The position numbers and the translations under genes are program-made. Shown piece after piece: positions 580 to 5,919 of a DNA stretch of 64,000 nt. The stretch is from Brevundimonas fontaquae (GTDB lineage Bacteria; Pseudomonadota; Alphaproteobacteria; Caulobacterales; Caulobacteraceae). Location: NCBI RefSeq assembly GCF_017086445.1, contig NZ_CP070968.1, positions 3,162,001 to 3,226,000 of the forward strand. The letters are read 5' to 3'. A model generated the notes under the pieces. The model saw nothing but the letters and a program-made list of their open reading frames with translations, was not told the origin of the DNA and did no database searches. The number at the start of each line of letters is the position of its first letter. Positions within the stretch are counted from its first letter, which is position 1.

Positions 580-803
580 GGTCACTGACATGGACCGTCG
601 CAGCGATCCGCGCCAGCGGGGCGATGTCGCGGCCCCTCTTGCAGGACCGACGGCAATTGCCCCTTAGGCGGCAAAAATGTGCGCTTGAACCATCGCGTCT
701 GCACCCAGACGCGGATTGTCTGGCCACAGCCCGCGAAAACCCGACAAAATCATCCAGAAACCGGGTGACGCCGCCGCCCCGTCTGGCTACGACCATCGGT
801 GTC

Positions 804-2198
804 ATGAGCACCTCCAGCGCCCGCTACGTCTCGACCCGAGGCCAATCTTCCGAAACCGATTTCGCCGACGCCCTGCTGCGCGGCATCGCGCCCGACGGCG
901 GCCTCTATATTCCCACCGCCTGGCCCAGCCTGTCGCCCGCCGCCTGGACCGGAACGGCCGACTACAAGCCGATCGCGCTGCAAGCGATCGCCACCTTCAT
1001 CGGCGACGCCCTGCCCGCCGGCGCGCTGGACCGCGCGCTGGACCGACTGACCGCCGGGTTCAACCATCCGCTGGTCACGCCTCTGGTCGAGCTGGAGCCG
1101 GGCCTGTTCGTGCTGGAACTGTTTCACGGCCCGACCGCCGCCTTCAAGGATCTGGCGATGCAGCTGGTCGCCAGCCTGACGGACGAGGCCCTGGCCGCGT
1201 CGGGCGAGCGTCTAACCATCCTGACCGCCACCTCAGGCGACACCGGCGCCGCCGCCGTGCGCGCCTTCGCCGGCGCCAAGTCCGTCGATCTGGTCGTGCT
1301 CCACCCGCTGGACCGCGTCTCGCCGGTTCAACGCAAACAGATGACGACGGTCGAGGCGGACAATGTCCTGAACCTGGCCGTGCGCGGTGATTTCGACGAC
1401 TGCCAGCGTCTGGTGAAGGGCCTGCTGGCCGACGAGGCGCTGCGCGAACGCGGCCGCCTGTCCTCGGTCAATTCGATCAACTGGGCGCGGCTCGCGGGCC
1501 AGATCCCCTACTATGTTTCCGCGACCGCACAGCTGGGCGGGGCCGCGACCTTCGTCGTGCCGACCGGCAACTTCGGCGACGCCTTCGCCGGCATCGCCGC
1601 CACGAAGATGGGCCTGCCGTCGAACGGCTTCGTCGCCGCCGTGAACCAGAACGACGCCCTGGCCCGCGCCCTGCATGACGGCCTATATTCACGCCGTCCG
1701 GCGGTCGAAAGCGGCAGCGTCTCCATGGATGTGCAGGCGCCGTCCAACTTCGAGCGGCTGGTGTTCGAGGGGACGGGCCGCGACGCCGAGGCGACGCGCG
1801 TGGTGTTCGAAACCTTCGCCCGCGACGGCGCCATCGCCTTCGATCCGGCGCTGCTTACCGCCCTTCGCGACCACGTCTCGGCGGTTTCCATCGACGAGGA
1901 TGAGACGCGCGCCGAGATCGCCCACGCCTATGAGACCTGGGGCCGTGTCGTGTGCCCGCACACGGCCGTGGCGCTGGCCGCCGCGCGACGGCAGGACCGC
2001 TCGAAAGGCCCCGTCATCGCCCTGTCCACCGCCCATCCGTCCAAGTTCGGCGACTTCGTTTCGAACGTCCTGGGCTTCGAACCCGAACCCGCAAACGTCA
2101 TCGCCGCCCTGGGCGACAAGCCCGAGCGGTTGACGATCGTCGATGGGACGATGGAGGCGGCGCGTGACGCCGTGGCGGCCTTTTCAGGCCGCCACTAA
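804..2198 (+). CDS. thrC: Threonine synthase
   Basis: A 464-residue PLP enzyme that converts O-phosphohomoserine to threonine in the cytoplasm. The frame is open upstream to 624, but the ATG at 804 gives the usual N-terminus (MSTSSARYVSTRG, then an Asp/Phe-rich helix and GLYIP). The PLP lysine is K115 in FHGPTAAFKD, and TSGDTG near residue 140 is the phosphate-binding loop. The segment NSINWARL is also typical of threonine synthase. It lies next to thrB and the kinase-dehydrogenase fusion but on the opposite strand, with csbD between, so it is not in their operon. The stop is 6 bases from the convergent csbD stop. Confidence 0.96.
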   Translation: MSTSSARYVSTRGQSSETDFADALLRGIAPDGGLYIPTAWPSLSPAAWTGTADYKPIALQAIATFIGDALPAGALDRALDRLTAGFNHPLVTPLVELEPGLFVLELFHGPTAAFKDLAMQLVASLTDEALAASGERLTILTATSGDTGAAAVRAFAGAKSVDLVVLHPLDRVSPVQRKQMTTVEADNVLNLAVRGDFDDCQRLVKGLLADEALRERGRLSSVNSINWARLAGQIPYYVSATAQLGGAATFVVPTGNFGDAFAGIAATKMGLPSNGFVAAVNQNDALARALHDGLYSRRPAVESGSVSMDVQAPSNFERLVFEGTGRDAEATRVVFETFARDGAIAFDPALLTALRDHVSAVSIDEDETRAEIAHAYETWGRVVCPHTAVALAAARRQDRSKGPVIALSTAHPSKFGDFVSNVLGFEPEPANVIAALGDKPERLTIVDGTMEAARDAVAAFSGRH

Positions 2199-2611: not shown

Positions 2612-3556
2612 TCAGGCCGGTTCGGTCGCGCGCCAGTGGTCCATCCGACGCAGGAAGACCGCCGGATCCTTGGGCGTCACCAGATTGGCGGGATCGTGGA
2701 AAATGCGGTCGTGCAGCCGCGTCACGGTGAACCGCAGGGCCGCCGCTTCCCCCAGACGCGGCAAGGCCTCCCGCTCCGCGCCGCTAAGCGGCCGCACGGA
2801 TTCATAGCCGCGCTGGAAGGCCGTCAGGGCGTCCGGCATGGGTCGCCCCTCGGCGTCGAAGCCCCAGGCCGACAGGGCGATGGCGAGGTCATAGGCGAAG
2901 GCGCCGGTGCAGCCGAAATAGAAGTCGATCACCGCCGAAACGGCGTCGTCCTCGAACAGCACATTGTCGGGGAAATAGTCGGCATGGATCGCTCCGCCCG
3001 GCAGATCGTCCGTAAAGGGATCGCCCAAGCGCGCCAGCGAGGCGTTCACCTGATCCAGGAGACGTCGATCCTCGCCCGAGGCCGCCGGGGCGCACCGATC
3101 GGCCAGCCGACGCCACATGGCCGGCCCAACCGGATTGGCGCGTTTCAGATCAAAATCAGCCGCGGTCAGATGAAGCCGCGCCAGCACCGCCCCCGCCGCC
3201 GCCTGATCGGCCGATGACGGCGTGCGCAGCCAGGCGCCGGTCTTCCATTCGATCACCGCCGCCGCCCGGCCGTTCAGTCGTCCCAGCCATGCCCCCGACC
3301 GGTCCTCGACCGGCGTCGGGCAAGGAAAACCGCGCGCCGCCAGATGCGCCGTCAGCCCCAGGCAGAAGGGCAGCGAGGCCTCGTCCGTCCGCCCCTCGAA
3401 CAGGGTCAGCACAAACCGGCCCTGCGTCGTGTCCAGTCGATAGTTGGTGTTCTCCACCCCCTCGGCGATGGCCGTCAGTTCGACCACCTCGCCGATGTCG
3501 TAGCCGGCCAGGAAGGCCTTGGCGTCGGCGATGGAAACGGGGGTGAAGACGGCCAT
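2612..3556 (-). CDS. thrB: Homoserine kinase, APH-fold type
   Basis: A 314-residue kinase that phosphorylates homoserine to O-phosphohomoserine, the substrate of ThrC. It belongs to the aminoglycoside-phosphotransferase-like ThrB family typical of alphaproteobacteria and pseudomonads, not the GHMP type of E. coli. The catalytic loop is HADYFPDN (H191, D193, N198), followed by the metal-binding VIDF. The N-terminus MAVFTPVSIADAKAFL is characteristic of the family. It starts 4 bases after the kinase-dehydrogenase fusion ends, so the two form an operon that should be controlled by the leader attenuator upstream. Confidence 0.95.
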   Translation of the reverse strand: MAVFTPVSIADAKAFLAGYDIGEVVELTAIAEGVENTNYRLDTTQGRFVLTLFEGRTDEASLPFCLGLTAHLAARGFPCPTPVEDRSGAWLGRLNGRAAAVIEWKTGAWLRTPSSADQAAAGAVLARLHLTAADFDLKRANPVGPAMWRRLADRCAPAASGEDRRLLDQVNASLARLGDPFTDDLPGGAIHADYFPDNVLFEDDAVSAVIDFYFGCTGAFAYDLAIALSAWGFDAEGRPMPDALTAFQRGYESVRPLSGAEREALPRLGEAAALRFTVTRLHDRIFHDPANLVTPKDPAVFLRRMDHWRATEPA

Positions 3557-3560
3557 GGGC

Positions 3561-5297
3561 TTAGTTTAGGCCCGCATCGGCGCGCCGTGCACGCACGATC
3601 TCGGCCAGATCCGCCATGATGCTCTCGGTCGTGGCCCAGCGCCCGGCGCCCCGGCCCCGGCAGCGCCACACGCGGCCGTCGGCGCCATAGACCTTCAACG
3701 CATTGCCCTCGCCGCGCAGGGTCGAGAACAGAGGGTCGCCATGGTCGGCTTTCAGCGACACCGACGGCCGGATCACCCCGTCCTTCAGATGGGCGGCGCC
3801 GATCTGGCGCACGCCGCCGGCGGCCGAGGTCGTCTCGCTCAGGTGGTCGCGCGGCACGTCGCCTTCGGGCGAACGGCCGAACGCTTCGTGGCACAGCAGC
3901 CGCACCTTGGCCGCCGCATCCAGACCTTCCAGATCCGAGGACGGGTCCTCCTCCGCAAAGCCCGCCGCGCGGGCGTCCGCCAGGGCTTCGTTGAAGGCCG
4001 CCCCGTCGCCCAGCCGCTCCAGCATGAAGTTGACCGTGCCGTTCAGCACCGCCTCGAAACCGACCACCTCGCCGGCTGCGCGGGCCGCGCGGACCGTCTC
4101 GATCATCGGCGATCCTCCGCCGACCGAGGCCGACCAGAAGATGCGCCGTCCATTGGCTTTCGCCAGTTCTTGCAGCCCGCCCGGATCGCGGCTGACCGCC
4201 TGTTTGTTGGCGCTGGCGACATCGCAGCCGGCCTCGAGCGCAGCGCGGATCACCGCGTGGCCCGCCTCGCCTTCCGACAGGGCCTCCAGCACGATGTCGG
4301 GCTTCCTGGCCCACAGGTCCGCCGGGTTTGAGGTGAACAAGGACGCCGGACAGTCCACGTCGCGGGCCTTTTTGGGGTTGCGCACCAGCACGCCCACGAC
4401 CTCGTAGCGAGGATCGTCGAGCAGCTTGCCCAGCACGCCGCCGCCGACCACGCCGCATCCGGCGACCGCGACCTTCAGCGGCGGCAGGGCGGGCGCGGGA
4501 CCAGGCGGCGCAGACTTGTCGCCGATGACCGTGCCGTCGGCGCGATCCAGGGCCGCCACCTCGATCTCGACCCCGCGGCTTTCGCCCAGGTCGATGGCGT
4601 CGTGCTGGACCAGCGCGCCGCCCAGCTTGCGCGCCACATCCCAGGAGGCGCGGCGATAGCGCAGGGCCGGGGCCGTCTTATCGTTGGGGTCGTGGTCGTA
4701 AAGGCCGTCCACGTCCTTGACCAACCGCACCTTCTTCAGCCCCAGCTCAGCGGCCAAGAAGACCGCCGTCAGGTCCGATCCGCCCCGCCCCAGCAGGGCC
4801 ACCTTGCCGTCCGGCCGCACCGCGCCGAACCCGGGCACCACCACCACCTCGTGGCGATCCAGCGCCTGTTTCAGATGGTCGGGGCGTAGGCCGCAGGGGC
4901 GCGAATGCTCCGGCTCGCCCTCCGCCACGATGCCCAGCTCCCGCACCGACAGGGCGCAGGCGTCCAGCCCGATCCGGTCGCAGGCGATGGCCACCAGGGC
5001 CGCCGACTTCTCCTCGCCCAGGGCCACATAGCCGGGCAGCAGGTCGTTGGAATGGGCCAGGCCCAGCGCCCTCGCCTCGCCCAGCAGCCGGTCCGTCGCC
5101 CCGCCGAAGGCCGAGACCACCGCCACCACCTTCCGCCCCGCCCGCACATGGCCATAGACGGCCGAGGCGACCAGCGGCGCCTCCGCCGGGCTGCGCAGGA
5201 TGGACGAGCCGAACTTCAGCACCACGACCTCTGGTGCAGGCTGACTGCTGGGGTCGAGGCTTTCGGATTTTTCTACGACGGCGAGTTGGGCGGACAT
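3561..5297 (-). CDS. Fused aspartate kinase-homoserine dehydrogenase lacking ACT domains
   Basis: A 578-residue protein in two parts. Residues 24 to about 262 are an amino-acid-kinase domain like aspartokinase (K28 in KFGSSIL, GRGGSD at 170-175, KDVDGLYDHDP at 194-204). Residues 274-578 are a homoserine dehydrogenase: Rossmann motif AGCGVVGGG, then ANKQAV, NGTVNFM and the catalytic segment EEDPSSDLEGLDAAAK. It would phosphorylate aspartate and reduce aspartate semialdehyde to homoserine. E. coli ThrA has the same order but about 820 residues, with a regulatory ACT region between the domains; here about 12 residues (Pro/Ala-rich) join them and no C-terminal ACT is seen. KFGSS replaces the usual KFGGT, so kinase activity is not certain. 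thrB follows directly. Confidence 0.88.
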   Translation of the reverse strand: MSAQLAVVEKSESLDPSSQPAPEVVVLKFGSSILRSPAEAPLVASAVYGHVRAGRKVVAVVSAFGGATDRLLGEARALGLAHSNDLLPGYVALGEEKSAALVAIACDRIGLDACALSVRELGIVAEGEPEHSRPCGLRPDHLKQALDRHEVVVVPGFGAVRPDGKVALLGRGGSDLTAVFLAAELGLKKVRLVKDVDGLYDHDPNDKTAPALRYRRASWDVARKLGGALVQHDAIDLGESRGVEIEVAALDRADGTVIGDKSAPPGPAPALPPLKVAVAGCGVVGGGVLGKLLDDPRYEVVGVLVRNPKKARDVDCPASLFTSNPADLWARKPDIVLEALSEGEAGHAVIRAALEAGCDVASANKQAVSRDPGGLQELAKANGRRIFWSASVGGGSPMIETVRAARAAGEVVGFEAVLNGTVNFMLERLGDGAAFNEALADARAAGFAEEDPSSDLEGLDAAAKVRLLCHEAFGRSPEGDVPRDHLSETTSAAGGVRQIGAAHLKDGVIRPSVSLKADHGDPLFSTLRGEGNALKVYGADGRVWRCRGRGAGRWATTESIMADLAEIVRARRADAGLN

Positions 5298-5330: not shown

Positions 5331-5369
5331 GTGAAAAGAAAAACCCCGCCTGGCGGACCGGGCGGGGTT
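5331..5369 (-). terminator. Attenuator terminator hairpin in the threonine operon leader
   Basis: On the minus strand the 9-base arms AACCCCGCC (5361-5369) and GGCGGGGTT (5342-5350) form a hairpin with a 10-base loop, followed by TTTTTCTTTT. This is a strong intrinsic terminator lying between the leader peptide stop and the start of the kinase-dehydrogenase gene, 34 bases before that gene. The 5' arm overlaps CCCGCCC, which can pair instead with GGGCGGG at 5410-5416, inside the last leader codons. That gives a plausible antiterminator. Confidence 0.85.
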
Positions 5370-5399
5370 CGGGTTCTGCGGTTGCCGGGGTTCGGCGCG

Positions 5400-5540
5400 C
5401 TAAACTCGTCCCGCCCGTTCGGGCATGGTGGTGGTGCCGGTGGTACCGCCGATAATCGTGCCGCCGAGGATCATGCCGAAACGCGTCGCGGCGAGGCCGG
5501 CGACGGTCGAAACTTCGGCGATGAGCGAGCGCTGTTGCAC
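5400..5540 (-). CDS. Threonine/isoleucine-rich leader peptide of the threonine operon
   Basis: From a GTG at 5540 the frame gives 46 residues ending in TAG at 5400. Residues 28-38 read TIIGGTTGTTT, that is six Thr and two Ile codons in eleven, at 5427-5459. An internal ATG at 5474 would give a 24-residue peptide with the same cluster. Neither start has a clear Shine-Dalgarno site. The peptide is followed by a terminator hairpin, and a competing antiterminator strand overlaps its last codons, as in classical threonine operon attenuation. A TTGACA hexamer on the minus strand at 5593-5598 is a candidate -35 box, but no convincing -10 was seen. Confidence 0.8.
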   Translation of the reverse strand: MQQRSLIAEVSTVAGLAATRFGMILGGTIIGGTTGTTTMPERAGRV

Positions 5541-5728
5541 AGGGCAGGTCCGGTTGAAATCTGAGCCTAGGGTGATCGGACGACCCTGACTCTGTCAAGT
5601 CGCATTGGATGATTTTTTCACGACAAGGCGTTTATGGTGCGTTTTCACCTCCATCGAGTCGACCCATGCCACTAATGAGGTTGAATTTTTCGCTTGACCG
5701 GCGCCGCCTCGATCATCAACGTAAAGTC

Positions 5729-5843
5729 ACTCATCAAGACCAGCCGAGGGATTAGGCCCTTTGACGCTGGGGCAACCATCGGGTCTCACAGCTCGAAACG
5801 GTGCCAACTCCTGCGGGGTCCTTCGGGGTCGCGAGAGATGAGT
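5729..5843 (+). promoter_or_regulatory. SAM-I-type riboswitch upstream of metX
   Basis: The P1 helix is a perfect 7-base pairing of ACTCATC (5729-5735) with GATGAGT (5837-5843). Between these lie the conserved elements in order: GAGGGA, GGCCC, TGA-GC, GGCAACC (5771-5777), and GGTGCCAACTCC (5800-5811), followed by a stem closed by a TTCG loop and GAGA just before P1'. This order and wording match the SAM-I aptamer (S-box). The 3' strand of P1 shares two bases with a following hairpin (GTGGAGC 5842-5848 with GCTCCAC 5863-5869), which may be the expression platform. No T-run follows it, so control may be at translation. It precedes metX by 76 bases, which fits feedback on methionine synthesis. 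Confidence 0.85.
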
Positions 5844-5919
5844 GGAGCATCGACGAGACGACGCTCCACGCTCTGTCACCGCATCGAGACTTGCTGAGCG
5901 AGAACGATGCGGAACGACA

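Follow-up and report, generated by a model that had tools for sequence, protein, structure and literature searches.

A probable threonine/isoleucine attenuator before the ACT-less aspartate kinase-homoserine dehydrogenase fusion of Brevundimonas

How can a homoserine dehydrogenase be adjusted to the supply of its end products when the enzyme carries no feedback domain? Canonical homoserine dehydrogenases get end-product control through allostery. The window analysed here, a stretch of 64,000 nucleotides from the genome of Brevundimonas fontaquae (3.30 Mb, one contig), contains an aspartate kinase-homoserine dehydrogenase fusion in whose protein Pfam finds no ACT family. ACT domains are present in the separate aspartate kinase of the same genome (L321) and in L097, the single canonical Caulobacteraceae homoserine dehydrogenase scanned. 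The nearest named relatives of the fusion gene belong to Brevundimonas vesicularis and B. huaxiensis (98% identity). thrB lies 4 nt 3' of the fusion, probably in the same operon, and a threonine synthase gene converges on the pair (Table 1). On the other side, metX (NF006449) and a metZ-like frame, named by eye, are divergent from the fusion; the SAM-I riboswitch before metX gives the homoserine branch point a further RNA switch, which is divergent from the fusion and is not part of the element described below. The original prediction placed a Thr/Ile leader-peptide attenuator directly in front of the fusion. Our analysis confirmed the observation and, as judged from the sequence, the region very probably acts as a ribosome-mediated transcription attenuator of the thrA-thrB operon.

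Table 1. Position of the fusion operon, its leader elements and neighbouring features in the window.
Feature	Position	Strand	Details
Threonine synthase (Thr_synth_N, PALP)	about 801..2198	+	convergent with fusion-thrB
thrB, homoserine kinase	2612..3556	-	TIGR00938 thrB_alt, 325.7 bits (cutoff 255.9)
Aspartate kinase-homoserine dehydrogenase fusion	3561..5297	-	578 aa; AA_kinase, NAD_binding_3, Homoserine_dh (Pfam)
Terminator T tract TTTTTCTTTT	5343..5334	-	
Intrinsic terminator hairpin (stem)	5341..5370	-	folding and consensus scan
Antiterminator strand CGGGCGGG	5410..5417	-	core GGCGG 5415..5411; inside last leader codons
Leader peptide frame	5400..5540	-	46 codons; GTG start 5540, TAG stop 5402..5400; ORF list and relatives
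Regulatory Thr/Ile codons	5427..5459	-	6 Thr and 2 Ile per 11 codons
Putative -10-like element CACCCT	5569..5574	-	18 nt from -35; promoter function proposed
Putative -35 element TTGACA of leader promoter	5593..5598	-	read from sequence; promoter function proposed
SAM-I riboswitch before divergent metX	5728..5844	+	Rfam RF00162, 79.7 bits

Translation of the leader frame gives the 46-residue peptide MQQRSLIAEVSTVAGLAATRFGMILGGTIIGGTTGTTTMPERAGRV. Its codons 28-38 read T-I-I-G-G-T-T-G-T-T-T, which are the six Thr and two Ile codons claimed for an 11-codon stretch. The start had been given as either of two, for 46 or for 24 codons. We favour the GTG of the longer frame, which was kept in all 14 near relatives checked (the window counted in); the internal ATG of the shorter one is not kept in all relatives. 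In these 14 leaders start and stop are constant and length differences are whole codons, and in other clades GTG or TTG stands at the leader start (alignments, by eye). Frame and start are conserved, and the leader would be translated; no clear Shine-Dalgarno sequence was seen. Among the 775 short ORFs (8-75 codons) of the window, a density of eight Thr/Ile per 11 codons was unique to the leader. When the 300 nt upstream of the fusion gene were shuffled 1000 times with dinucleotides preserved, no short ORF with eight appeared, the maximum being six, reached once.

The strong hairpin and T-run said to precede the gene were both recovered. The window terminator folds at -21.2 kcal/mol, the consensus scan finds part of it, and 36 nt separate the T tract from the start codon of the fusion; an intrinsic terminator lies between the leader and the first gene. 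The G-rich strand predicted over the last leader codons also proved to be in place: CGGGCGGG falls in leader codons 42-44 and can form a duplex of -20.4 kcal/mol with the 5' arm of the terminator. Upstream of the frame, TTGAC of the putative -35 element is kept in 53 of 54 aligned sequences (counted by eye; the exception is L053), and CACCCT or near variants occur at about equal distance in the alignments of relatives (by eye). A scan for E. coli-type promoters did not call this pair and found no promoter.

Conservation in relatives had been named as a check on the prediction, and the locus passed it. The Thr/Ile cluster, the terminator and the antiterminator strand were found, at fixed spacing, in 59/59 other uncut fusion loci of the Brevundimonas clade, whose fusions are 98% down to 63% identical to that of the window. 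Most of these records are titled Brevundimonas; a few bear the titles Caulobacteraceae, Alphaproteobacteria or 'bacterium' and one is a 'Bordetella' metagenome bin, the otherwise-titled records being 63-92% identical to the window's fusion. The public-genome scan comprised 65 loci, three of them cut at a contig end (L019, L030, L062). Another three had no leader: the distant gene L066 from Bacteroidota, L064, in which the kinase part is missing, and L055, a non-Brevundimonas fusion that follows a metZ-like frame. The leader-bearing genes formed a single group with support 100/99 when a tree was built from the homoserine dehydrogenase parts of Caulobacteraceae and L066 (83 of 106 rows after thinning).

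We then counted by genome. Out of 61 Brevundimonas genomes, 40 hold the fusion, 14 a partial match in which residues 1-155 of the kinase part, or more, are missing, and seven, some of them incomplete, neither. A covariance model, itself built from Brevundimonas leaders, scored at least 69.6 bits in 40/40 fusion genomes and in 0/21 of the others, including 0/14 of those without the full fusion. Across 101 Brevundimonas genomes it gave 70 strong matches in 69 genomes, and the next best match reached 41 bits. At L043 the leader persists though the upstream neighbours are leuD and leuB, not metX; here (472-2156) leader and fusion stand directly behind leuD-/leuB-like genes of the same strand, with Aconitase_C and Iso_dh domains. 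Four Brevundimonas genomes of completeness 99-100 (G032, G044, G092, G130) gave no match to the Homoserine_dh family; these organisms are possible threonine/methionine auxotrophs.

Over the 60 loci, the window included, the short frame contains 6-9 Thr/Ile codons per 11 codons, matching the products of the pathway: six in eight loci, seven in 28, eight in 17 and nine in seven, six being also the threshold used to select leaders. In 3000 shuffles of these loci, six was reached in 15 and seven in four. In 60/60 the hairpin has a T tract behind it (TTT and further T as a minimum). Terminators have a median energy of -21.2 kcal/mol (range -16.5 to -28.0) and antiterminator duplexes one of -20.4 kcal/mol (range -10.7 to -24.4), the two structures being nearly balanced. 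Covariation was assessed on 52 of the 60 sequences, five identical ones and the near copies L002, L004 and L006 being left out. One pair of the terminator stem is compensatory (A-U in 23 sequences, C-G in 22, other in seven) and its covariation score exceeded that of 500/500 shuffles; the number of covarying pairs did not exceed that in shuffles. In the antiterminator helix, which is 93.5% paired, near-invariance leaves no covariation to be seen. Codon choice is biased in both parts of the leader, with ACC making up 409/531 Thr codons of the leader bodies (downstream genes: ACC 38%, ACG 59%) and GGG or GGA encoding the Gly within the antiterminator in 58/58 loci that have one (24% of Gly codons in the fusion genes), counts that are not independent because the loci are related.

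In 60/60 loci the antiterminator core (GGTGG in L060) precedes the stop codon by exactly 13 nt. At 14 nt before this core stands a Thr codon in 55 loci, an Ile codon in four and a Met codon in one (L053); given the constant distance from core to stop and a run so rich in Thr and Ile, this spacing is not independent evidence. By toeprinting practice, the 3' edge of a ribosome is placed 12 nt past the first base of the A-site codon. With this edge, a ribosome on the 14-nt codon just frees the core and a ribosome at the stop covers it. An additional Thr/Ile codon, just 2-8 nt from the core on its 5' side, occurs in 16 of the 60 loci, and a ribosome stalled on it would cover the core.

Folding with the ribosome footprint masked, which had also been called for, gave the shift that the model requires in most loci. 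With the ribosome at the stop, the probability of the terminator was above 0.9 in 58/60 loci. With the ribosome stalled at the 14-nt codon, the antiterminator replaced the terminator in 43/60, the window among them; for this stall we took a codon at least 14 nt from the core, a choice that favours the attenuation model, and one geometry count used the last Thr/Ile codon at any distance. The predicted probabilities in the window are 0.99 for the antiterminator when stalled and 0.99 for the terminator at the stop. In the remaining 17 loci the equilibrium fold keeps the terminator despite the stalled ribosome. Nine of these 17 belong to the L043 clade, whose terminators are stronger; switching could still occur in the 17, real switching being kinetic. 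A footprint 9 nt longer covered the core and abolished the antiterminator in 60/60. Without a ribosome, the minimum-energy fold of the 236-nt leader of the window has the antiterminator and not the terminator, and a shorter window transcript gives a mixture (terminator 0.55, antiterminator 0.27).

From these sequence elements, their conservation and fixed spacing, the codon bias in the antiterminator and the predicted folds, we infer a promoter, translation of the leader, a stall and an effect on expression, which would be connected as follows. Transcription would start near 5560 and a ribosome would translate the leader. With Thr-tRNA and Ile-tRNA charged, the ribosome would reach the stop and cover CGGGCGGG; the terminator would form, and RNA polymerase would halt with 36 nt still to go to the fusion gene. 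A shortage of Thr or Ile would stall the ribosome on the Thr/Ile run. With the last Thr codon of the run in its A site, its leading edge would be 1-2 nt short of the antiterminator core, and the free core would pair with the 5' arm of the terminator, so that transcription would proceed into the fusion gene and thrB. Conservation, fixed spacing and masked folds thus support the logic of ribosome-mediated attenuation put forward in the original prediction.

Could the frame instead encode a small functional protein, with the hairpin as its terminator and the operon served by its own promoter before 5297 or by leakage? Public data sets do list the frame as a predicted protein, and a trans-acting leader peptide, peTrpL, is reported from an alphaproteobacterium. 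Length-matched relatives of the frame in protein databases are 'hypothetical protein' where named, and two leader peptides compared with the NCBIfam leader-peptide models at E up to 10 matched no family. In the window, just 36 nt separate T tract and start codon. We looked in the N-terminal half of the peptide for a codon-position signature of protein-level selection and found none, all three positions varying equally, and a cis-acting leader therefore fits better than a functional protein. Conservation resides in the Thr/Ile run and in the strand complementary to the terminator, where less-used Gly codons are fixed, and the Thr/Ile content fits the pathway of the next genes. We regard a small functional protein as quite improbable. 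The leader might also control translation initiation or mRNA stability and not transcription termination, since mutually exclusive antiterminator and terminator folds could act on stability too; with hairpin and T tract in 60/60 loci and the start codon of the gene outside the hairpin, we hold this to be very improbable. A chance Thr-rich frame in GC-rich DNA next to an ordinary terminator, which four other short ORFs of the window reaching six or seven Thr/Ile per 11 codons might bring to mind, is refuted for practical purposes by 0/1000 shuffles reaching eight and by conservation and fixed spacing over 60 loci.

The preferred reading, a transcription attenuator, has well-known counterparts. 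The leader is like the E. coli thr attenuator (thrL; RF00506 Thr_leader) in its Thr/Ile run and its ACC-rich Thr codons, and unlike it in its GTG or TTG start, its ACT-less fusion target and its bacterial class. In E. coli, as here, a terminator precedes an aspartokinase-homoserine dehydrogenase gene, with thrB next, and the Brevundimonas leader peptide is longer than that of thrL. RF00506 did not match the leader at its gathering score or at E up to 10; six Rfam matches at E up to 10 were all far below gathering scores and were rejected. The E. coli thr leader has eight ACC codons, and such a bias is explained there by selective tRNA charging (PMC1183508). The Caulobacter ilvIH leader (PMC4117421) and the Sinorhizobium trp leader (PMC10117765) share mechanism class and bacterial class with the present one and differ in standing before genes for branched-chain amino acids or Trp; in the passages of PMC4117421 consulted, neither 'threonine' nor 'homoserine' occurs. 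PMC10117765 also describes the Sinorhizobium sORF SEP5, which has six Thr and three Lys codons and lies in the 5' UTR of a gene that its authors link to threonine and lysine synthesis, and they suggest a leader peptide. SEP5 differs in that the gene is called aspartate dehydrogenase, in its conservation in Sinorhizobium only and in having Lys, not Ile. A survey with the Rfam Thr leader that included four Caulobacterales suggests that attenuator motifs originate in Gammaproteobacteria (PMC3766115). Among the passages of PMC full text consulted, which include parts of PMC2965389, PMC1273637, PMC4833913 and PMC4239095, none describes a threonine attenuator in Caulobacterales; the principal survey of attenuators in proteobacteria, Vitreschak et al. 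2004, lies outside this set. Within the set, the literature is in line with the original remark that no leader of this sort had been seen reported before the fusion.

We next asked how far the leader extends beyond Brevundimonas. None was found before 30 canonical hom genes at family level (Caulobacteraceae; at most four Thr/Ile per 11 codons), before 23 Caulobacteraceae fusions outside Brevundimonas (L127-L149; maximum five) or before the seven fusions of family f117, three of which (L281, L283, L284) have a metZ-like frame upstream. At class level, 118 genomes matched and 90 loci were fetched, three of them too short upstream; the 87 usable canonical hom genes had no convincing leader, five reaching five Thr/Ile per 11 codons and one, L249, six. 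The frame of L249 is Ile-rich and of a different kind, and was not accepted.

In a Maricaulis-related family (f116), leader-like regions were present in 22 of 33 fusion genomes, absent in ten and unsure in one (L300). Public proteins related to L292 are named Maricaulis and a more distant one Oceanicaulis; the 120 relatives listed have kinase and dehydrogenase domains and no ACT (precomputed Pfam; P0098 is partial). Like the Brevundimonas leader, those of f116 combine a Thr/Ile-rich frame, a terminator and a complementary G-rich strand; they differ in the end of the peptide and in the terminator, which in most of them reads CCCGCTCC...GAGCGGG. Their homology with the Brevundimonas leader is hypothetical. 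The count of 22 includes L263/L297 (one genome) and L292, which have only five Thr/Ile per 11 codons and were accepted by eye, which favours the model. With the ribosome stalled at the last Thr/Ile codon the f116 terminator gave way in 2/23 rows, and with a stall at a Thr/Ile codon that precedes the G-run by 12 nt or more in 20/23, a dependence on the stall codon chosen that makes this result weaker than that for Brevundimonas. In a whole-fusion tree of 41 chosen rows the leader needs two changes, which may be two origins or one with loss. Weaker matches of the Brevundimonas model, at 32.5-41.1 bits, were inspected in 16 loci. Three of them (L263, L266, L268; 34.6-37.8 bits) are leaders before the fusion, matches that cannot decide homology because terminators without a leader score similarly. 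The other 13 were taken as ordinary terminators: six false positives in Brevundimonas (L269-L272, L274, L275) lie upstream of a peptidyl-tRNA hydrolase-like gene and two (L265, L267) near a thioredoxin-like gene, both named by eye, and five at other places. In L263 and L268, leader and fusion follow a PEP carboxykinase-like gene (by eye).

Within Brevundimonas, the two RNA switches are distributed with the form of the gene. A SAM riboswitch is divergent from the fusion, 408-493 nt off, in 37 of 40 fusion genomes; in the other three, the contig of the fusion has none within 5 kb. Among the 14 genomes with a partial match, the riboswitch lies upstream on the same strand at 2.2-2.6 kb in 13 and on another contig in the last. 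The arrangement in the 13 is consistent with metX-metZ-hom as one operon behind the SAM riboswitch. No Thr/Ile leader was found before 17 Brevundimonas genes without the full fusion (maximum five per 11 codons). Brevundimonas dehydrogenase genes behind metZ-like frames (L150-L166) retain an N-terminal open stretch; in G025 a weak match (45% identity) to kinase residues 21-80 suggests decayed kinase remnants. One genome of completeness 100 (G147) holds both kinds, a fusion with leader (L280) and a kinase-less gene behind a metZ-like frame (L151), a pair reminiscent of ThrA and MetL. Two less complete assemblies (G030, G058) also show both.

The probable mechanism is of a textbook kind; what is new is where it occurs, the absence of ACT from its target and its exchange with an operon under a SAM riboswitch. 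The leader may supply end-product control in place of allostery, because the fused enzyme is without an ACT domain. We put forward, as a tentative reading in which we place less than even confidence, that in Caulobacterales an ACT-less homoserine dehydrogenase has moved between two RNA switches, answering to methionine within the SAM-riboswitch metXZ operon and to a Thr/Ile attenuator as a free-standing fusion. In this tentative scheme the leader would replace the missing allostery, two-copy genomes would have separately built the ThrA/MetL division of E. coli, and the Thr/Ile leader may have arisen twice, in Brevundimonas and in the Maricaulis-related family. A probable Thr/Ile attenuator, of a type best known from Gammaproteobacteria, is now placed in Caulobacterales before a fused enzyme without the usual feedback domain. 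Our results also suggest an identity, that of thr leader peptides, for some of the small 'hypothetical proteins' in Brevundimonas. The partition between SAM riboswitch and Thr leader is a comparative system for the change of regulator at a branch-point enzyme, and the fusion offers a test of whether RNA control can replace lost allostery.
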